Origin: Parachryseolinea silvisoli
Lineage (GTDB): Bacteria; Bacteroidota; Bacteroidia; Cytophagales; Cyclobacteriaceae
Direction: 5' to 3'
DNA: 64,000 nucleotides
Assembly (NCBI RefSeq): GCF_021190955.1
Contig: NZ_JAIOAO010000006.1
Coordinates: 62,001 to 126,000, forward strand
Shown here: positions 1 through 11,597 of the stretch, one piece after another
Position numbering within the stretch: the stretch's first letter is position 1
Layout of the letters: each line of letters opens with the position of its first letter
Made by a program: the position numbers and the translations under genes
The notes under the pieces: generated by a model
Told to the model about the DNA's origin: nothing
The model's database searches: none
The model's input: the letters and a program-made list of their open reading frames with translations, nothing else

Positions 1-751
1 TCGGATTCTCAGGTTCGTTCTGCAAGGTGATGGCATCAATCGTTATTCCTTCTTCGGCCATGCCTTGTATATACCGGACAAAGTACTCTGCATAGGCTGC
101 GTAAAACTCGGGCTTTAAGCTTCCCCCCTTGGGGTGACCGTTGGTCTTCATCCAGGCGGGCGCCGACCATGGACTACCCATGATCTTGATGTCGGGATTG
201 ATAGCCAGGATTTGCTTGAGTGCTGGTATGAGGTATTTTTTGTCTTCCTCCAGTGTAAAGCCTTTTAGCTCGGGATCGGTCTTGCCTGGGGGCAGGTCGT
301 TGTATGAGAAGACATGGTCATCCAGATCGGAGGCACCGACGCTCACACGCAGGTAGCTTACGCCAATGTTGGTGCCGTCCCATCGGAATAGCTCGTTGAG
401 CAATGCCTCGCGTGTGGAGGGTGTCAGCGTTTGGATGTGGTAAGCGCTTCCTCCGGTTAGGGAGTAACCGAATCCATCGATCGTCTGGTACTGTTGTGTG
501 GAGTCTATCTCGATCACGAGTAGATCGGTTGCCTTAGTGTTAAACGCCAGGGCTTGCTGGTCTTTCGCCAGGAGAGACGATCTGTCGCTGGTGGTTAGGT
601 AGGAATGGATGGACGACGCCTCAACTTCAGACTCCGATGTTGTTTGTTTTTCCTGGTCGTTGCGTTGGCATCCTTGCCATAGCACGCTCGTCAGCACTAA
701 TGCCACGCCGAGTGTAATCCCTTTTACGGTTGAGTTCAGTTTTACTTTCAT
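1..751 (-). CDS. GH30 family glycoside hydrolase, N-terminal part (cut by window edge)
   Basis: The first 250 codons of a glycoside hydrolase family 30 enzyme; the C-terminus lies beyond base 1. Start is the ATG at 751. Residues 1-30 form an export signal with a possible lipoprotein cysteine (WQGC). GH30 signatures follow: QTIDGFGYSLTGGSA near residue 85, YLRVSVGASDLD near 125, IMGSPWSAPAWMKTNG near 185, and TLQNEPENP at the visible end, whose Glu is the family acid/base. The nucleophile Glu is outside the window. GH30 members cleave beta-1,6-glucan, glucosylceramide or xylan. Directly downstream of susC and susD (50-base gap), so a secreted or surface enzyme of that locus; beta-1,6-glucan is the substrate I would test first, by analogy with other SusCD-GH30 loci. 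Family certain, substrate inferred. Confidence 0.9.
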   Translation of the reverse strand, partial: MKVKLNSTVKGITLGVALVLTSVLWQGCQRNDQEKQTTSESEVEASSIHSYLTTSDRSSLLAKDQQALAFNTKATDLLVIEIDSTQQYQTIDGFGYSLTGGSAYHIQTLTPSTREALLNELFRWDGTNIGVSYLRVSVGASDLDDHVFSYNDLPPGKTDPELKGFTLEEDKKYLIPALKQILAINPDIKIMGSPWSAPAWMKTNGHPKGGSLKPEFYAAYAEYFVRYIQGMAEEGITIDAITLQNEPENP

Positions 752-801: not shown

Positions 802-2265
802 TTAGTATCCGTCGTTTTGCGTTAGCTTTTCGTTTTTGTCACGCTCATTTTGCGGAATGGGCCATAACAGTCGGTCTTCTGTTAATTGATACCCCAAGCT
901 ATTGCCATTTCCATCGCGGAGGGCATTCATTACCTCAATCGCCTTTCCCGTGCGTTTCAGGTCGTACCAACGTTGCCCCTCAAAGACAAGCTCCAGGCGG
1001 CGTTCCTTTGCAATCGCCTGAACCATGTTGGCGTCTGTTGTCGGTGTGATGGCGTCTAGGTGCACGCGCGCGCGAATCTCATTTACAAGGTCTGCTGCGC
1101 CCTCCAAATCACCAGCGTCTGTCAATGCTTCGGCTTTCAGCAGCATGATGTCGGCGAGTCGGAACAAAATATAGTTTTGTGTGCCGTTGGTGTTTCTGTA
1201 CTTATAGGAGTATGGAAAGTTTGTTAGCGGCCAATATCGGTCAGACCATTTGCCGGTAACGTCCGCAAAGCGAATGGACGCGTTTTTACGGATCTCATCG
1301 CCTTCGGCATCAAATGCCGCCACCAGGTCATTGGTGGGAGTATTGAATTTCTTCCAGTCAATACCATAAAACATACCAGCTCCCCAGTTGCCTGTACCAG
1401 CATCCCAGCCGTCGTAGGTTATTTCAAAGATTGCTTCAGAAGAATTTTCGTGTGTTCCGTCCCACAATTGATCGAACTCGGGTAACAGCTCGTACCCGGC
1501 CGCCAGTACGGCGTCGGCATGCTCGTTAACCTTTGCCCAGTCGTGCGGCTCTACGGTTGCGTATACTTTCGCGAGTAGAAAATGTGCTGTGCTTTTTGTC
1601 GCAACGTTTTTGTTTGCAGTAGTAGCCCGTGTATTGGCGACGGCAAGTTCCAGGTCCTTGATTATCTGCTGGTATATTTCAGCCTGCGGTGTACGAGACA
1701 AGTATATTTTACTTTCATCATCCACATCCCATTCGGTTATTTCATGCACCAGTAACGGTATATCGCCATATTGACGAACCAGCTCAAAGTACATGTACGC
1801 CCGCACAAATGCCGCTTCGCCCTTGATTTCGGCTCTTCTTGTTTCCGTCAGGGCTGCATCGGTAACAGAGTCGATATGATCTAATACCGTGTTGGCTTTG
1901 GCGATTGTACTGTACAAGTAACGCCAGTCACGAAGCACGTTATTATTTACCGATTCAATGGCGTATTCATCAATCTGAAAATTATTAGGATTGTCTGCGC
2001 CGGCATACGCATTGTCGGCTTGCGCATCGCCATTTACGTAATAATCCAACTGAAAATATTCGTTTCTAAAATCGCCATAACAGCCTGCCAGAATCGCTTC
2101 CGCCTGACTTGCCGTTGTGAATCCAGTTGATTTGCCGTCATTTCCAAGATCCTCGTTCGTTAACTTAGAAAGTGGGTCTCTATCCAGAAAATCATCGCAC
2201 CCCAGTAAAAGCGCACCAACCAACAGAAGGGCGCCTATATAATTGTATGTTTTTGCCTTTCTCAT
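802..2265 (-). CDS. SusD/RagB family nutrient-binding outer membrane lipoprotein
   Basis: Surface glycan-binding lipoprotein that works as a lid on its SusC partner. 487 residues, usual for the family. The N-terminus has a lipoprotein signal ending LLLGC (Cys about 23), followed by DDFLDRDPLS, typical of SusD. The middle is the alpha-helical TPR-like SusD fold (ADIMLLKAEAL near 375), and the C-terminus has the usual RRLELVFEGQRWYDLKRTG segment near residue 430. The start is 11 bases after the susC stop, so the two are cotranscribed, with the GH30 gene next. The bound glycan cannot be read from sequence. Confidence 0.95.
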   Translation of the reverse strand: MRKAKTYNYIGALLLVGALLLGCDDFLDRDPLSKLTNEDLGNDGKSTGFTTASQAEAILAGCYGDFRNEYFQLDYYVNGDAQADNAYAGADNPNNFQIDEYAIESVNNNVLRDWRYLYSTIAKANTVLDHIDSVTDAALTETRRAEIKGEAAFVRAYMYFELVRQYGDIPLLVHEITEWDVDDESKIYLSRTPQAEIYQQIIKDLELAVANTRATTANKNVATKSTAHFLLAKVYATVEPHDWAKVNEHADAVLAAGYELLPEFDQLWDGTHENSSEAIFEITYDGWDAGTGNWGAGMFYGIDWKKFNTPTNDLVAAFDAEGDEIRKNASIRFADVTGKWSDRYWPLTNFPYSYKYRNTNGTQNYILFRLADIMLLKAEALTDAGDLEGAADLVNEIRARVHLDAITPTTDANMVQAIAKERRLELVFEGQRWYDLKRTGKAIEVMNALRDGNGNSLGYQLTEDRLLWPIPQNERDKNEKLTQNDGY

Positions 2266-2276
2266 CGCTCGTCTGT

Positions 2277-5222
2277 TTAGAATGAAACGTTTACGCCCAG
2301 AATGATCGTTCTCGATTGCGGATAGGTTCCGTAGTCGATGCCAATCTCGGTTCCTTTTCCTCCCGCAGTAGAATATGCGTTCACTTCAGGATCGTAGCCC
2401 GAATAGTTTGTCCATGTCAGCAAATTTTGCCCGGTAGCGTATACCGATAGTTTATTGATACCCAGCTTCTCCAGCGGACTGGTATTTACATTGTACGAAA
2501 GCGTTACGCTCTTCACCCGGAGATAGGAACCGTCTTCAACGAATCGCGTTGAGTTACGAATACTACCGGTACCAATGCCTGCGCGTGGTATGTCGGTATT
2601 CCGATTGTTCTCGGTCCACCGGTTCAACACCACTGTTGATTGATTCTTGGTGTCATACATGCCTTCCAGTTCCATACGAGTGGCATTGTAGATATCGTTT
2701 CCTTGCGATCCTTGCAGGAATACATTGAGATCAAATCGCTTGTATGAAAGGTTATTAGTCAACCCGAATATGAAGTTCGGCTGCGCGTTTCCAATCACAG
2801 TACGATCGGCGTCATTCAGGCCGTTACCTGTAAAGTCGTGGTACAACGGATTTCCGTTTTCAGGATCAACCCCTTCATAGATGTATCCAAAGAATGTACC
2901 CAACGAGCTACCTTCCGTCATTCTCACAAGGTTTTGATCGCCGTTGCTGTACATTGGAGCATAGTAGTAGACTTTGTTCAACGTCAATTCAGTCACCTTA
3001 TTTCGGTTGAACGATATATTGAAGTCCGTGGTCCACCGCAGTTCGCTTTCGGTATTGATTGACGATAGGGCCAACTCCAGTCCTTTGTTCTCCATTTTAC
3101 CAGCATTTTTGCGAGCAAATGCGAAACCTGTATATTCATTAAATCCAACGTCGAGCAGCAAGCCATCTGTTTTTTTCAGGTAGGCGTCGAATGTAAATGT
3201 CAATCGCGAGTTTAGCACGGAAAGATCAACGCCGATGTTTGTCTGGGTTGTTTCCTCCCAGGTGATCGCGGGGCCACCCAATACATCTTCTTCGATAATC
3301 TCCGGACCCTGTCCCAATTCAGATCTGCGTCTGAACCCCGATTGTGTATACGAGGCATAGGTGTTAATATTCTCCTGATTACCGTTCTTACCCCATCCAG
3401 CACGTAGCTTTAAGTCGTTGATAGTAGCAACGCTTTGCATGAACGGCTCAGCCGAAATTCTCCAGCCGGCAGAAAACGACGGGAATGTGCCCCATTGACG
3501 ACCGGCGGCAAATCGCGATGATCCGTCCCGTCGTAGCGTAGCCGCAAAAAGATACTTTCCATCGTAGTCATAGTTCACACGTGCCAGTAACGATGCTATA
3601 CCCCAGTCAGTCGCCTCTGTGAAAGCGTTGACAATTTGGTTTGCGGCATTTAATGTTTGTACGCCGCTTACGCTGGGAAAGTCTTTTGCTTCGATATAGG
3701 TACGTTCCCACGTAGACTCTTGCGCCGTCATGCCCGCCAGTACATTGATATTGTGTACGCCAAACGATTTTACGTAGTTGAATGTATTCTCACTCAACCA
3801 CGAAAATGTTGTCGACTGATCCGTGCGGCCTATACCGTGATTGGAGGGGTCTCTGCCAAATACGGTTCTAAACGGGTCGAGGAAATAGTCATTACGATGG
3901 ATGGTATAGTCTACACCAAAGTTGGTACGGAAGGAAAGCCCTTCGAGAATCTTCACTTCGGCATTAAAATTTCCAATCAGGCGATCATCGGTTGTGCCTT
4001 CATCAGCACCTTCCATGAAGGCCACGGGGTTCTCCCATGATGGTTGGAACGGATTGGGCGCAAATTGTCCGCTGCCGTCGGGATTGTACGTCGTCAGAAA
4101 AGGAGGTGTTGTTAGCGCACTTAAGATTACACCTCCCCGACCTCCAGCTTTGTTATCTTCGGTGTTCTTATACTCGGAACGCACGAAGTTGAAGTTGGTA
4201 CCGAACTTCAGCCATTCTTTTACCTGATTGTCAAGATTCAGGCGCAGTGTATAGCGGTCGTACGCCGACGGGTTGATGATACCTTTGTTTTTGAGATAGC
4301 CGCCGGATACATAGTACTGGTTTTTGTCAGTACCCCCAGCGTAAGAAAGCTGGTAGTTTTGAAATGACCCGGTTCTATAGGTTTCGTCCTGCCAGTTTGT
4401 GTTTTGAGTAATGGCCGGGTCGACTACGGTATTGTTAATTTCGCTCATCAAGTCACGATACTGCTCGGTATTCAACACGTCCAGTTTCTTTGTGACCTCT
4501 GTGACCCCTACGTTGGCGAGGAACTGAAGCACGGGGGCGTTGGCTTTACCGCGCTTTGTTGTGATCAGTACCACGCCGTTGGCCGCACGCGCTCCATAGA
4601 TCGCTGCAGACGACGCGTCTTTTAGCACGCTCATGCTTTCGATATCGTTGGCGTTGATGCCGCGAATGTCGGTTGTCGGTACGCCGTCCACGACGTACAG
4701 CGGCTCATTACCAGCCTGTACAGATGTAGCACCGCGCACACGGATGGAGATCTCACCACCCGGCTTACCGGATGTCTGCGTGACCTGGACGCCTGCTGCC
4801 TTACCCTGTAATGCTTCTGCAGCGGAGGTCAGGGGACGGTCTTTGATGGAAGTCTGGTCCACGATGGCCACCGACGTGGTCAGGTCTTTTTTCTTCTGGG
4901 TTCCATACCCTACCACAACGACCTGTTCCAGGGTGGTTAGGTCTTCTTCCATTTTAACATCGATGACTGAGCGGTTGTCGATGGGAATCTCTAAAATTTG
5001 GTAGCCGATGAACGAAAAGACCAGCGTTCCTTCCGTGGCGTCAAGCTTGTAGTTGCCGTCACCATCTGTAATGGTACCAGTAGACGTACCCTTCAGCACG
5101 ACGTTTACGCCAGGCAGCGACTGCCCGTCTGGTGAAGTAACTTTCCCGGAGACGCTGCCATTTTGAGCCCATAGGGCCGCGGATAGCACCATGCTCCATA
5201 GCAGGAGTAAACCTCTTTTCAT
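2277..5222 (-). CDS. SusC/RagA family TonB-linked outer membrane protein
   Basis: TonB-dependent outer-membrane transporter importing oligosaccharides with the neighbouring SusD. 981 residues from the chosen ATG at 5222. An in-frame ATG at 5252 would add ten residues ahead of a clean signal peptide (MKRGLLLLWSM...ALWAQ), and a -7 promoter box overlaps it, so the shorter form is preferred. Order: signal peptide 1-20, carboxypeptidase-regulatory-like domain about 22-95 (VSGKVTSPDGQSLPGVNV), the SusC segment EQVVVVGYGTQKKKDLT near 100, plug domain to about 230 (VRVRGATSV, PLYVVDGVPT, VLKDASSAAIYGARAANGV), then a 22-strand barrel ending NVSF. First gene of a susC-susD-GH30 operon. Confidence 0.95.
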   Translation of the reverse strand: MKRGLLLLWSMVLSAALWAQNGSVSGKVTSPDGQSLPGVNVVLKGTSTGTITDGDGNYKLDATEGTLVFSFIGYQILEIPIDNRSVIDVKMEEDLTTLEQVVVVGYGTQKKKDLTTSVAIVDQTSIKDRPLTSAAEALQGKAAGVQVTQTSGKPGGEISIRVRGATSVQAGNEPLYVVDGVPTTDIRGINANDIESMSVLKDASSAAIYGARAANGVVLITTKRGKANAPVLQFLANVGVTEVTKKLDVLNTEQYRDLMSEINNTVVDPAITQNTNWQDETYRTGSFQNYQLSYAGGTDKNQYYVSGGYLKNKGIINPSAYDRYTLRLNLDNQVKEWLKFGTNFNFVRSEYKNTEDNKAGGRGGVILSALTTPPFLTTYNPDGSGQFAPNPFQPSWENPVAFMEGADEGTTDDRLIGNFNAEVKILEGLSFRTNFGVDYTIHRNDYFLDPFRTVFGRDPSNHGIGRTDQSTTFSWLSENTFNYVKSFGVHNINVLAGMTAQESTWERTYIEAKDFPSVSGVQTLNAANQIVNAFTEATDWGIASLLARVNYDYDGKYLFAATLRRDGSSRFAAGRQWGTFPSFSAGWRISAEPFMQSVATINDLKLRAGWGKNGNQENINTYASYTQSGFRRRSELGQGPEIIEEDVLGGPAITWEETTQTNIGVDLSVLNSRLTFTFDAYLKKTDGLLLDVGFNEYTGFAFARKNAGKMENKGLELALSSINTESELRWTTDFNISFNRNKVTELTLNKVYYYAPMYSNGDQNLVRMTEGSSLGTFFGYIYEGVDPENGNPLYHDFTGNGLNDADRTVIGNAQPNFIFGLTNNLSYKRFDLNVFLQGSQGNDIYNATRMELEGMYDTKNQSTVVLNRWTENNRNTDIPRAGIGTGSIRNSTRFVEDGSYLRVKSVTLSYNVNTSPLEKLGINKLSVYATGQNLLTWTNYSGYDPEVNAYSTAGGKGTEIGIDYGTYPQSRTIILGVNVSF

Positions 5223-5249: not shown

Positions 5250-5284
5250 CAAATGTAGAGGAGTGTTTTCTAATCGCGATACAA
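5250..5284 (-). promoter_or_regulatory. Putative Bacteroidota promoter for susC
   Basis: On the minus strand a perfect -7 box TACATTTG (5250-5257) is preceded by TTG (5282-5284) with a 24-base spacer, slightly longer than the usual 17-23. Expected transcript start near 5246, giving a leader of about 24 bases to the ATG at 5222 and leaving the alternative ATG at 5252 upstream of the transcript. Confidence 0.55.
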
Positions 5285-5412
5285 CTTACTGGAATGTAGG
5301 TAGTTACAAAAAATGATACGCTTCAGTCGCAAGTTAAAAATGCCCTTTTGACACAATTTGATGGCATTGGGCCTGGAACCGAGAAATGATGCTGATACGC
5401 CAGAAAAGGCGC

Positions 5413-5464
5413 AATCGTTTACGACAGGCTCGGAGGTAAAAAAAAGAATATCAATCGATTACGA
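5413..5464. promoter_or_regulatory. Pair of 12-bp direct repeats upstream of susC, candidate operators
   Basis: AATCGTTTACGA at 5413-5424 and AATCGATTACGA at 5453-5464 match at 11 of 12 positions and start 40 bases apart. Each is close to palindromic (TCGTTTACGA; AATCGATT), as for a helix-turn-helix dimer such as a LacI-family regulator. They lie about 160-210 bases upstream of the susC -7 box and before the end of the next gene. No regulator gene for them is in view. Confidence 0.4.
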
Positions 5465-5530: not shown

Positions 5531-7420
5531 TCATTTGTCTTCCTCTACTAAAATGGAATTCCACCCTTCGCGCAGGTGTAGGCCACCATGGCGACGTCTT
5601 TCTTTCATGGTTTTCTTGATGCGTGAGCTGTAAGTCCAGCAGGTGCTTTGACGGATGCCCAGGATCTCGGAGAGCTTATGAGAGGATATATTGCCCTGCG
5701 AGCTGTAGACCAGGAAAATCATGTAAAAGGCCTTGTTGATGGGTAGCCGGGTGTTCTGCAATACGGTGTAGGCAGTTACGGATTCGTCGTAGCCACATTT
5801 GGAGCAGCGGCGGCTGTAGGGGCTTTTGCCGGTGCTGTATTGGGTATGGCCACATTTGCGGCAGGCATAGTTGTGATGCCATTTTATATCCGCCAGGAAC
5901 TTCAAGCAGCTGTCATCATCGGGGTACATCGCGCTGAATTCCTCAAAGTCGACCTCTTTGGACATGATGCGCGCTTCTTTGACTTCTGCCACGTCATGTT
6001 TTAGTTGGTCATTGTCACGGGCCAGGAGGGTGTTCATCGCAGCAATTGCTTCCGCTTGCCGGGCCAGCCGGACGTTGGCTTCCTCCAGGCGGTGGTTCTG
6101 CTCTTCGATGAGCTCCGTCTTTTGTACCAGCTGCGCCGTTTTCATGCGCACCTGTTCTTCCAGCTCCTGGTTCAAGCCATCTTTCAGGCGTTGGTTTTCG
6201 TGCAGTTGTTCAATGGTCTTCTCCTGCGCTTCGGCCTTTTCGATGCGGAGCAACCGGATTTTGTCACTAATTGCAAATGACAGGAAAAGCATTTCCATGA
6301 TAAAGCAGAATCCCAGGCTATAGTGTGATAGCTGTCCAAAGGGCATCCACTCAAAGTCAAAATACAACGACACTTTGCTTACTACGCCAAACAGCAAGAT
6401 GCTATAGCCTATTACTAAAAACCGGGCGGCTGAATATCCCTTGGCCCAACGGTATGCCGCGGCATAGAAAGCTGCGGCGAACGGCACAATCTCGATAAAC
6501 CGAACGGCAAACCATTCGCGCACGACAAACAAGCTTACGAAGAGAAAGATTGTTCTGAAAACAAAGGCTCCCAGGATAAGCTTAAACAATCCTGGTGCTT
6601 CTCTTCGGAGGGTTAGTACCGAGGCGGCAAAAAAGAGTGCAAAGGTTGATGCCAGGTATAGGGCTATGCCTGGCGCGTATTGGTTCCAGGTGATGGCCCG
6701 CGGCCATATATATTGGAAGGCTATGCCGTCGGCGCTCATTTCGTATACCCCGATGCCCACCAGGTACAGCATGTAGAGCAGGTAGTGGCTTTCGCGCACG
6801 GCGGCATACATCAGCAGGTTATAGAAAGAAAAGACCAGGATCATACCGTAGAATATGCCGAAGAAGAAGTATTCGTCCGTGGCATATTCAAACAAGTAGT
6901 CTGTTGAGCGGAGTACAACGATCGCTTCGGCCTGCTGTGCCGACCGAAGCCGGAAGTAATACGTTACTTCACCGGCTACGTCATTGGCTATAGGGATGAC
7001 AAAATTTTTATGTTTTAGCGGGCGGGCCGAGAACTCCTGGTGGTCCCCGTAACGATGGCGTACATACCCTCCGTCTGCTGTCGGGATAAAGAACTCGATG
7101 CTGTCTATCGTCTGATCAAAGAATTCAATCACCCAACGTGTTTGTAGCGCGGGATCGAGTTTTACTTTTACCCGGTGCCAGTAGGCGGCATTGCGGTGTT
7201 TGTTCTCGGGATTAAACGTCGCACTGGGGTTGAAATGAATATTCCAGGCTGGGCTGCTTACCTCTTGGATGGTAAGCTTACCGGAAAGGTCTTCCAGGTA
7301 TTGAATTTCCTGAAAGGAAAATATGTGTTGCCCCGATACGCTCTCCAGCGCAACAGCGGGTTGGGCCAGGCTGGCGTAGCACAAGCTCCAACCGATGGCA
7401 AGGGCAATTAACTTTCTCAT
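5531..7420 (-). CDS. 7TM-DISM receptor fused to IS1595-type transposase zinc ribbon and HTH
   Basis: 629 residues from the ATG at 7420, which begins a clean signal peptide (MRKLIALAIGWSL...SLAQ); an ATG at 7447 adds nine residues. Order: signal 1-20; extracellular 7TMR-DISM extracellular domain about 30-165; seven transmembrane helices about 175-390; coiled coil about 395-490; then from about 508 a zinc ribbon with CRKC (520-523) and CSKC (539-542), and a helix-turn-helix (ISSHKLSEILGIRQSTCW, about 577-594). The last part matches the N-terminal DNA-binding half of IS1595/ISXO2 transposases, which continues into a DDE nuclease; here the protein stops at the point where that nuclease would begin. 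7TM-DISM proteins are sensors with varied cytoplasmic outputs. I infer a membrane-bound DNA-binding sensor; ligand and target unknown. Confidence 0.85.
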   Translation of the reverse strand: MRKLIALAIGWSLCYASLAQPAVALESVSGQHIFSFQEIQYLEDLSGKLTIQEVSSPAWNIHFNPSATFNPENKHRNAAYWHRVKVKLDPALQTRWVIEFFDQTIDSIEFFIPTADGGYVRHRYGDHQEFSARPLKHKNFVIPIANDVAGEVTYYFRLRSAQQAEAIVVLRSTDYLFEYATDEYFFFGIFYGMILVFSFYNLLMYAAVRESHYLLYMLYLVGIGVYEMSADGIAFQYIWPRAITWNQYAPGIALYLASTFALFFAASVLTLRREAPGLFKLILGAFVFRTIFLFVSLFVVREWFAVRFIEIVPFAAAFYAAAYRWAKGYSAARFLVIGYSILLFGVVSKVSLYFDFEWMPFGQLSHYSLGFCFIMEMLFLSFAISDKIRLLRIEKAEAQEKTIEQLHENQRLKDGLNQELEEQVRMKTAQLVQKTELIEEQNHRLEEANVRLARQAEAIAAMNTLLARDNDQLKHDVAEVKEARIMSKEVDFEEFSAMYPDDDSCLKFLADIKWHHNYACRKCGHTQYSTGKSPYSRRCSKCGYDESVTAYTVLQNTRLPINKAFYMIFLVYSSQGNISSHKLSEILGIRQSTCWTYSSRIKKTMKERRRHGGLHLREGWNSILVEEDK

Positions 7421-9274: not shown

Positions 9275-9808
9275 TCAATGCCCATCTTTATCATCTTTAT
9301 TTTTATCATCTTTATTTGCAAAGCTCTTGATCTTGTCGCCGATCTCACTGTTTTCATTTACCGTTTTATAGAGGCTGGTAATCTTATCCATGGCTATCCG
9401 ACCTACAATATCCAGTACGAACAAGCTTTCTGCATCGTTTACCAATACCAGCATTCCCTTTGTTACGCCGTTCTTTTCTTTTATAAATACATCGAAGTTT
9501 TTTCCCTGGTAACGGCTTGACATCATTTCTTCAAACTGTTCAGATTTATAATCCGTTACCAATTTAGTATAATCACCTGTGGCAAAACCATTTGCTTTTT
9601 TGATCATCAGGAACCGCATCTTTTCTATATCTTCGATCAGGGCATCGAAGTCTTTGTCGTTTGTTTGGTTAAGCATGCGGAGCGTGTTGTTGTAGAAGAA
9701 CAATGTCAGGGCGTCGCTATGTTTCTTGTACAGTGCTTCGGTTACCGGGCTTTGGGCGCTGGCCCAGGAAGTACCCGCCAGTATCAGGAGTATTATGATA
9801 TATCGCAT
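9275..9808 (-). CDS. DUF4252 domain protein (copy 2 of tandem pair)
   Basis: Exported protein of unknown function, 177 residues, signal peptide 1-19 (ending ASAQ). The body matches the DUF4252 pattern seen in Bacteroidota: alternating Lys/Glu-rich helices and a short sheet (VLVNDAESLFVLDIVGRIAM). It is related to the upstream gene at 9965-10495, so the two arose by tandem duplication. The C-terminal tail is a lysine/aspartate repeat (NKDDKNKDDKDGH) encoded by a short tandem DNA repeat at 9286-9320. DUF4252 genes usually sit next to a sigma/anti-sigma pair, as here, and are likely targets or modulators of that system. Confidence 0.85.
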   Translation of the reverse strand: MRYIIILLILAGTSWASAQSPVTEALYKKHSDALTLFFYNNTLRMLNQTNDKDFDALIEDIEKMRFLMIKKANGFATGDYTKLVTDYKSEQFEEMMSSRYQGKNFDVFIKEKNGVTKGMLVLVNDAESLFVLDIVGRIAMDKITSLYKTVNENSEIGDKIKSFANKDDKNKDDKDGH

Positions 9809-9842
9809 GGGAGTTATTATGTATAGACCAATGTTTGTTACT

Positions 9843-9940
9843 TCGGGGAGTCGCCAGTTTGGAGACTGGCATCATGGCAGGCACGAGTCTCCACCCCGAG
9901 GCGGACCTGCCTGCCGGTAGGCAGGGCTAAGACTCGCGCC
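9843..9940. repeat. REP-like nested palindromic element between DUF4252 genes
   Basis: Non-coding block with three inverted repeats: GCCAGT/ACTGGC (9853-9858 with 9865-9870), CCTGCCT/AGGCAGG (9906-9912 with 9919-9925), and an outer pair CGAGTC/GACTCG (9884-9889 with 9931-9936) that encloses the second. The GC-rich text differs from the AT-rich genes on both sides. It looks like a dispersed repetitive extragenic palindrome; I see no second copy in this window. Confidence 0.5.
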
Positions 9941-9964
9941 AGAATCCTCGGGAACGAACGGCTG

Positions 9965-10495
9965 CTACTCGTGCTTCTTGCCGTTGTCTTTTACGTTCTC
10001 GAGCTTTTCGAGTCCGCTCACGTTCATTTTACGACCGATGTGTGATACTTGTTTCAGGTCGATCTCACCAAAAAGGCTCAGTACCATAAAATCTTTGGTG
10101 CCGCCCATGATCATTACCAGCTCAGAGATCTTTCCGCCGCTTTCTTTGATGTAGAACTTCATGTCTTTGTCTTTGTCGCGTACAGACATAAGCTCTTCAA
10201 ACTCTTTGGTTGGAATAAGCGAAAAGGCTTCTTTGTATAGTGAGCGGGCGTCAGAGGTATTCTCTTTGCCGAGAATGCGCAGACCTTTGAGCTTACTGAT
10301 GGCGCTTAGCACTTCCTGATCTTCTTTGTTTTCAACCTCCATATTCGTAAAGAGGCTGAACATCTTGCTACTGATTGTTACTTGCGTAAACGACTCGTCG
10401 TTTTGATATTTATTGAAGAACTTGGAGATAATGTCCTGTGCAAACACACCCTGTGCTGCCATCATCACGATTATTACTATATATATCTTTTTCAT
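9965..10495 (-). CDS. DUF4252 domain protein (copy 1 of tandem pair)
   Basis: 176-residue exported protein with signal peptide MKKIYIVIIVMMAAQGVFAQ. Like its neighbour at 9275-9808 it shows the DUF4252 layout: an N-terminal amphipathic region (FFNKYQNDESFTQVTISSKM), a regulatory-looking middle (GLRILGKENTS), and a C-terminal beta segment (ELVMIMGGTKDFMVLSLFGEID). Function unknown; probably periplasmic. It follows the anti-sigma-like gene by 39 bases and is likely cotranscribed with it. Confidence 0.87.
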   Translation of the reverse strand: MKKIYIVIIVMMAAQGVFAQDIISKFFNKYQNDESFTQVTISSKMFSLFTNMEVENKEDQEVLSAISKLKGLRILGKENTSDARSLYKEAFSLIPTKEFEELMSVRDKDKDMKFYIKESGGKISELVMIMGGTKDFMVLSLFGEIDLKQVSHIGRKMNVSGLEKLENVKDNGKKHE

Positions 10496-10534
10496 GGTGT
10501 TTAGTCCGTTTATTGTTCCTGTCGATTGCTGTTC

Positions 10535-11047
10535 TCAAAGTTTTTGCTCCTGAGAAGGTTTCTCTTTTTTAATTTCTTCTTGCGCCTCATTAAACATATT
10601 GATCTTCCGAGCCTGCTTTTCGGCTTTGCCAAAACTTTGGGAGATGAGCAGCAGGGCCTTTTTAGTTTCCTCAAATGCCAGCTTAGGGTCGCTGTAAGTA
10701 TCCACCACTTCTGGGTCAGCGGATTCCTGCATTTCTGTGTGTACGAACCACGTGGCCAGGCAAAGTACGGAGACGCCGGCTGCAATCCGTAGGGTGTTAT
10801 AGACCAGCTTCCGTATGCGGCCGGCCTCGGCCGTAGGCAGGTTGCTTACCACGGTGGCGTTAAAGGAAGCGTCGTCCAGTGATTTTTTTTTGGTGTCGTC
10901 GAAATAACGGAACATGGCGGCGGTTTCTTTCCACGGTTCTGGGGCCTGGTGGTTACGGAACCATTCGCGCAATTGCTGTTCTTCTTCTTGTGAGGTTTCG
11001 GCCTCCCAATATTTTTGCAGCAGTGCTTCGATTTTATTAGAGTCCAT
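10535..11047 (-). CDS. Putative anti-sigma protein, single-pass membrane
   Basis: 170 residues, one transmembrane helix at about 84-103 (NTLRIAAGVSVLCLATWF). The N-terminal cytoplasmic part carries IEALLQKYWEAETSQEEEQQL, a helix pattern common at the front of Bacteroidota anti-sigma-like proteins; the C-terminal, periplasmic part is charged and helical. The start overlaps the end of the ECF sigma gene by 11 bases, strong evidence of translational coupling. I infer that it holds the sigma factor at the membrane. No zinc-binding HxxxCxxC motif is present, so it is not a ZAS-type anti-sigma. Confidence 0.7.
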   Translation of the reverse strand: MDSNKIEALLQKYWEAETSQEEEQQLREWFRNHQAPEPWKETAAMFRYFDDTKKKSLDDASFNATVVSNLPTAEAGRIRKLVYNTLRIAAGVSVLCLATWFVHTEMQESADPEVVDTYSDPKLAFEETKKALLLISQSFGKAEKQARKINMFNEAQEEIKKEKPSQEQKL

Positions 11048-11549
11048 AGGCGTTCATCTTGGTGAGTTTTTCGCGCACTGTTGTCCGTGCTCTGAACAGG
11101 TTTACTTTTACCTGGTTCATATCCAGCTCCAGTATTTCGCAGATCTCGTTGTAGCTGTATCCTTCCACATCCCGAAGGTGTATGATCTGCCGTTGTTTTT
11201 CGGGCAGTGCTTCGATGATTTGACTGATACGGTGCATACTTTCGCTGATCTCCGTTGATTCGTGCGGTGTTAACGCTTCCTGACGAACGTCGAAGGTCTC
11301 TTCCATCGGCCGGGTTTGGCGGCGATGGTTGGAGCGGACACGATCCAGTGAGAGGTTGCGGGTGATGCGCATACACCAGGCCTCCCAGTTCTGTATCTCT
11401 GTCATCTGCTCCCGACCGTTCCAAACCCGAATGAATACCTCCTGTACCACGTCTTTCGCATCTTCTTCGCTCCCCAGAAAGCGAAGGGCGAAGCGAAAGA
11501 GCTTGTTCTTGGCAGGCAGCACCCGGTTTTGAAAGGATTCGAGGTTCAT
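11037..11549 (-). CDS. ECF-type RNA polymerase sigma factor
   Basis: 170 residues from ATG 11549 (MNLESFQNRVLPAKNKLFR, a start typical of the family); an ATG at 11582 would add eleven untypical residues. Region 2 includes EEDAKDVVQEVFIRVWNG, with the DD-type -10 binding helix; region 4 includes EKQRQIIHLRDVEGYSYNEI, the -35 binding helix-turn-helix. It overlaps the anti-sigma-like gene, and two DUF4252 genes follow, an arrangement common in Bacteroidota. It lies 48 bases after the VWA gene, so may share its transcript. Regulated genes are unknown, though the operon itself is a likely target. Confidence 0.93.
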   Translation of the reverse strand: MNLESFQNRVLPAKNKLFRFALRFLGSEEDAKDVVQEVFIRVWNGREQMTEIQNWEAWCMRITRNLSLDRVRSNHRRQTRPMEETFDVRQEALTPHESTEISESMHRISQIIEALPEKQRQIIHLRDVEGYSYNEICEILELDMNQVKVNLFRARTTVREKLTKMNAYGL

Positions 11550-11597
11550 GTACTGAAATTCAAAGGCAAGACGCCCGCTCATCAGGTTTGTTACACA

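Follow-up and report, generated by a model that had tools for sequence, protein, structure and literature searches.

The window is a 64,000-nucleotide stretch of Parachryseolinea silvisoli DNA in which a sensor gene at 5531-7420 (-) precedes a polysaccharide-utilization (PUL) operon on the same strand. The sensor open reading frame starts with an ATG at 7420, encodes 629 aa and ends in SILVEEDK*; according to profile matches, its product is a 7TM-DISM receptor joined to an IS1595-type zinc ribbon and a helix-turn-helix (HTH). The presumed target, a gene for a susC-type TonB-dependent transporter at 2277-5222 (-), is read from the ATG at 5222 (the list of open reading frames gives TTG at 5252), and is accompanied by susD at 802-2265 (-) (PF07980) and by a GH30 glycoside hydrolase gene at 2-751 (-) (PF02055, E 2.3e-26), which leaves the window. 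An earlier note on this DNA had described paired operator-like repeats beside the susC operon, and these are real: a distal site of 17 bp at 5393-5409 (-) and a proximal one, also of 17 bp (GCGACTGAAGCGTATCA), at 5314-5330 (-), have CGTATCA cores at 5393-5399 and 5314-5320, respectively, which lie 79 bp apart. Elsewhere in the window, a DUF4252 gene and an ECF-type sigma factor gene (9275-11582) are located upstream of an ABC transporter pair.

Behind a signal-peptide-like start (judged by eye), the sensor carries a 7TMR-DISMED2 extracellular domain at residues 38-170 (6911-7309 (-); PF07696, E 1.1e-29) and a 7TMR-DISM_7TM seven-helix membrane domain at residues 183-387 (6260-6874 (-); PF07695, E 6.9e-37, profile positions 1-205 of 205), so that both parts of a 7TMR-DISM receptor are matched. 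This receptor type was reportedly defined in a 2003 paper. A continuous helical stalk at residues 381-485 (5966-6280 (-)) corresponds to helix 2-106 in the AF2 model of residues 380-629 (mean pLDDT 86.5). It leads to the zinc ribbon at residues 500-544 (5789-5923 (-)), with CRKC at 520-523 and CSKC at 539-542, whose match to Zn_ribbon_IS1595 (PF12760) exceeds the curated cut-off of 25.4 bits both in the whole protein (28.3 bits, E 1.7e-6) and in the C-terminus alone (32.4 bits). The HTH region at residues 561-610 (5591-5740 (-)), with a putative recognition helix starting from RQSTCW, was recognized from AF2 helices and from the NCBIfam profile transpos_IS1595 (NF033547), of which positions 1-57 of 215 match residues 556-611 at 32.1 bits, below the cut-off of 75. 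These data confirm the receptor running into an IS1595 ribbon and HTH that had been read from the letters alone. Beyond the long stalk helix, AF2 gives short strands and helices compatible with the ribbon and the HTH (mean pLDDT 86.5 and 87.6), and the domain order together with these helices places a sensor and a DNA-binding domain on one chain across the membrane, the membrane topology being taken over from the Pfam family. Foldseek returned no structural match with E <= 0.001, and its weak matches (E 0.5 or above) include, among those listed, zinc ribbons and HTH regulators. In a sequence search of the PDB, nothing was found for the C-terminus, and the N-terminus gave weak matches only, mostly to C5a peptidase. 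Histidine kinase, receiver and sigma domains had no Pfam match in the sensor at E <= 1, and the protein is therefore not of the HTCS type.

Likewise, no match to the DDE nuclease (PF12762) was found in the sensor by Pfam at E <= 1, which sets it apart from the IS1595 transposases. The DDE domain was matched in all of the nine transposase-type proteins from related genomes to which this check was confined (E 1.9e-4 or better, with two of the nine DDE matches and three of the nine ribbon matches below the curated cut-offs). In these nine, a ribbon match that begins at residues 11-34 is followed 111-136 residues later by the start of the DDE match (126-154), in agreement with the earlier statement that the sensor stops about where the nuclease would begin. 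The loss of the nuclease also withstands the objection that a corrected frame might restore it: the 80 relatives described below share the same protein end, and the gap between sensor and susC, which measures 169-360 bp in 22/22 tandem cases and <= 416 bp in 25 of the 27 cases of a second set, is too short to hold a DDE domain of ~150 residues.

Fused sensors are present in many soil and water Bacteroidota. In a scan of species-genome contigs, 436 of the 574 candidate stretches proved to be relatives, and the best 80 of these 436, which were kept, are all full-length fusions of 592-680 aa, 44-91% identical to the window sensor over the aligned part. The nearest among them is that of Dawidia soli (91%), and the genera include Dawidia, Chryseolinea, Pseudochryseolinea, Chryseotalea, Mucilaginibacter, Pedobacter, Chitinophaga, Solitalea and others. 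As the genome of the window itself holds a second fused gene (the paralogue) and 80 relatives are fused over their full length, the fusion is no assembly accident. In surveys that pooled fused genes and transposases, the domain was matched in 82 of 148 genomes of the family (E <= 1e-8) and in 41 of 395 genomes of the phylum (E <= 1e-12).

The window operon, with susC, susD and GH30 beside the sensor, marks the gene as a putative PUL-associated regulator, and its relatives have similar neighbours. In the best 80 of the 436 relatives, whose loci were fetched with up to 8 kb on each side, a PUL gene was detected in 78/80 loci and GH30 in 69/80. In 43 family contexts, a set that has three genomes in common with the 80 relatives, susC was directly adjacent in 27, susC or susD lay within six genes in 32, and a PUL-type gene lay within six genes in 41, counting only gene clusters with a checked label; both misses are on short contigs. 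The checked neighbour enzymes include PF10091, GH3, GH10, GH43, GH30 and GH16, and the GH30, GH16 and GH3 neighbours suggest a link to beta-glucan. As a control, 20 DISMED2 loci were inspected, 18 without and two with the ribbon. Among the 18 ribbon-less genes, susC was directly adjacent to none and within four genes of three, and the proteins carry other tails, many of them histidine-kinase-like at the end (by eye). Of the two ribbon-bearing loci, L250, which is the Dawidia soli gene again, has an adjacent susC, and the sensor L258:6642-8594, with a window-type HTH, lacks both a recognised PUL gene in 14 kb and an operator pair in its vicinity.

The variety of tails in the ribbon-less proteins shows that the receptor module joins many partners, and a decaying fusion, in which an IS1595 fragment was joined by chance to a receptor gene and has no function, might be considered on this ground. 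The conservation of the protein already contradicts such decay, and we regard this explanation as hardly credible. In 14 aligned full-length proteins, the mean column identity was 0.63 in the ribbon and 0.56 in the HTH, at least as high as in the rest of the protein (DISMED2 0.47, 7TM 0.54, stalk 0.53), and the four ribbon cysteines are invariant in the sensor alignments. RQSTCW is the same in all 34 window-type proteins that were aligned (of 81 at hand), and most of the sensors further removed have another sequence there.

The closest transposase frames are ~40-43% identical to the ribbon-HTH domain of the window sensor. For a tree, 24 sensors and 48 other rows (72 in all, 125 columns) were used; the other rows include short or truncated frames of 130-254 aa and also the standalone protein L198. 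L071, L073, L074, L084, L088, L200, L201, L203 and L204, which duplicate regions already present or are further copies of included elements, were omitted, as was L216 (15.5 bits). All 24 sensors form a single clade (support 99/94) among IS1595 transposase rows, adjoined by L198 and then by 20 transposase rows that group together, the other 27 rows lying further out; the root is a midpoint used for drawing only. Since all sensor domains tested fall in one clade, the tree suggests, as its simplest reading, a single capture of the transposase domain, within a sample picked by likeness to the window protein that may miss quite different fusions. L198:1194-1607 (-) encodes a zinc ribbon-HTH protein of 137 aa, without a receptor and without a DDE domain beside it, and could represent an intermediate, although its branch is long. 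Separately, genome G305 contains eight diverged IS1595-like genes (L185-L192), with weak or partial DDE matches in 3/3 tested and imperfect inverted repeats in most; a clear target duplication was not found around them.

When words were counted in the sensor-susC gaps of 27 family loci, of which four are of the window type, CGTATC and TGTTTTT stood out. From 52 CGTATC sites in 28 window-type promoters, the 17-bp consensus GGTATTnAAGCGTATCA was derived, with two copies in the sensor-susC gap of the window. When the 700 bp downstream of the 80 sensors were searched on the sensor strand, CGTATC[AG] occurred at least once in 58 loci and at least twice in 40, with 100 sites altogether, against 2/80 loci on the other strand, 5/80 and 4/80 with reversed letters, and a mean of 3.4 loci (maximum 10) in 500 first-order Markov resamplings. 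The removal of three discovery-set loci left the site in 55/77 and a pair at a spacing of 74-94 in 33/77. Among the consecutive spacings, 35/42 fell within 74-94 (control mean 0.002), in groups of 77-81 (12 cases) and 86-92 (23 cases) that differ by about one turn of the DNA helix. Over whole loci, CGTATC pairs were present on the sensor strand in 43/80 and on the other strand in one (control, 2 and 0). These loci are related, many being from Mucilaginibacter and Pedobacter, and the counts are thus not independent; the sequence flanking the cores varies between genera.

In gaps that lead to susC as the next recognised gene (within 1.5 kb), the site was present in 28/28 and a pair in 22; in those that lead to GH30, the site was present in 23/23 and a pair in 14 (other strand, 2). 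The core therefore occurs in 51/51 gaps with susC or GH30 after the sensor, and because gaps that lead to GH30 carry it as well as those that lead to susC, the site tracks the operon, not susC itself. CGTATC[AG] was absent within 700 bp downstream in 22/80 relatives, of which four have a pair further downstream, 13 have GH30 genes only before the sensor, and five show no obvious reason for the missing site. A motif search in nine further loci (six with GH10) gave nothing clear. As a genome-wide marker, the short pair pattern CGTATCN{70,90}CGTATCA was uninformative (8 matches against 6 in the reversed control). Longer patterns were close to unique in a genome. GGCGTATCAN{60,90}SCGTATCA had a single match in each of G127, G136 and G033, next to the sensor, and two in the genome of the window, one in the window and the other inside a 649-aa frame; the control gave 0.

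Sensors outside the window-type group have sites of another kind, a TGTTTTT pair at 65/66 bp in 10/18 tandem promoters, compared with a mean of 0.023 and a maximum of 1 in 1000 resamplings. In the 7.95-Mb genome of the window, ATGTTTTTNNNCNGGNAAA has two matches, both between the paralogue and the susC of the paralogue (control 0); this pattern was built from the very sites found and indicates rarity, not discovery. In this one genome, the promoter next to the sensor of the window and the one next to the paralogue carry sites of different types. In 8 window-type promoters, a further conserved element, CG[AGT]TTG, precedes the distal core by 17-19 bp (in the window, CGATTG at 5412-5417 (-), 18 bp upstream), and in seven promoters of other sensors it precedes a TGTTTTT by 12-13 bp. 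It is possibly LacI-like or a portion of a longer operator, and could be the sign of another regulator.

If so, the paired sites might be those of that other regulator (LacI, AraC or sigma type), with another task, such as oligomerisation or binding elsewhere, left to the fused domain. The fixed offset of this second conserved element from the sites would fit such a view, as would the window-type HTH of L258 in the absence of a nearby pair. Nevertheless, we consider it very unlikely, as the sites track the sensor in every gap with susC or GH30 directly after it, and the two paralogues in one genome have distinct site types at their own promoters. Moreover, neither the GGCGTATCA pair nor GGCGTATCAN{60,90}SCGTATCA was found in the four family genomes G074, G049, G063 and G036, whose best domain match is only 34-48% identical to that of the window.

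The sites were also compared with the ends of IS1595 elements by scoring 12 elements at both ends with the window-type matrix and the other matrix. The lowest p values with the window-type matrix were obtained for the right ends of five related copies in G305 (0.010-0.085, with one left end at 0.018) and for that of L062 (0.018), followed by the right ends of L055 and L061 (0.075 and 0.090), all remaining values exceeding these; the other matrix gave no p below 0.038. Across the 12 elements scored, no likeness of the operators to IS1595 ends is claimed. A match, TATCCGCAA, shared by the L061/L062 ends and one other-type operator, which had caught the eye, was dropped, as it comes from a transposase lineage that the tree places at a great distance from the sensors.

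Just downstream of the proximal site, at 5281-5310 (-), the window contains promoter-like elements, TTTG at 5307-5310 (-33) and TAAGTTGT at 5281-5288 (-7), which are 18 bp apart and which we take to resemble the Bacteroidota promoter consensus. In 20 aligned proximal sites, T-T-A occurs 38-40 bases past the core start (14, 17 and 17 of 20). From this fixed offset and the promoter-like elements, the proximal site adjoins the -33 element. Such a position could also block the polymerase, and the sensor might bind the paired sites and repress susC until release by the ligand. We think this unlikely, as two helically spaced sites just upstream of -33 would suit an activator better, and HTCS and ECF sigma systems act by induction in the available text of PMC10766802.

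Most probably, therefore, to judge from sequence, the sensor is a membrane-tethered one-component regulator that would bind the paired sites and activate the adjacent PUL (susC-susD-GH30). The earlier proposal of a membrane transcription factor made from a captured transposase domain is supported by the absence of DDE, the kept ribbon and HTH, the single clade and the site pairs. In the proposed mechanism, DISMED2 would sense a glycan fragment on the outer side of the inner membrane, and the signal would be relayed through the 7TM domain and the helical stalk; the zinc ribbon and HTH, from an IS1595 transposase minus its DDE domain, would bind the two sites upstream of susC, which would be spaced by near-whole DNA turns. 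Because of the -33-like element next to the proximal site, the most likely effect of binding is activation of susC-susD-GH30; that the sensor itself contacts the sites, which ligand it senses and that it activates instead of repressing are what we infer. It is also conceivable, though rather unlikely, that the sensor acts, still in the manner of a transposase, as a domesticated synaptic complex that bridges the two sites from the membrane, loops the DNA and activates the promoter, the one-time capture of an end-binding transposase module by a 7TM receptor having given rise to a widespread, so far undescribed class of PUL regulators.

Compared with known systems, the sensor has the zinc ribbon and HTH in common with IS1595 transposases (PF12760 and PF12762), but lacks the DDE nuclease and is joined to a receptor. 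With 7TMR-DISM receptors such as NicD of Pseudomonas aeruginosa, whose DISMED2 is linked to direct carbohydrate binding in the accessible part of PMC8544897, it shares DISMED2 and 7TM, but its output is a DNA-binding domain, unlike the GGDEF domain of NicD. 7TMR-DISM is named in a figure legend among the domains in architectures with the ChiS DNA-binding domain (PMC8092284); the ChiS family uses a different DNA-binding domain, and the sections of that paper at hand draw no link to transposases or PULs. The HTCS and ECF sigma/anti-sigma regulators of PULs combine membrane-linked glycan sensing with control of susC/D-type genes, as described in part of PMC10766802 and as proposed here. The sensor differs from both in having no matched kinase, receiver or sigma domain. 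TldR transcription factors are of TnpB origin. They are likewise transposon-type proteins turned into bacterial transcription factors (PMC13418256, in part), but are RNA-guided, whereas in the sensor DNA would be recognised by a protein domain attached to a membrane receptor. No description of a 7TM-DISM–IS1595 fusion was found by title or start of abstract among the literature matches listed, in which subscription literature is thinly covered.

Captures of transposase domains are reported in eukaryotes (e.g., the available part of PMC12062965), and the sensor would be a bacterial example in which the captured DNA-binding domain is borne by a receptor. If true, it would add a regulator type beside HTCS, ECF sigma/anti-sigma and catabolite repression (PMC10766802, in part) for hemicellulase genes and PULs. 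The predicted 17-bp operator is immediately testable, and many PULs would gain a likely sensor.
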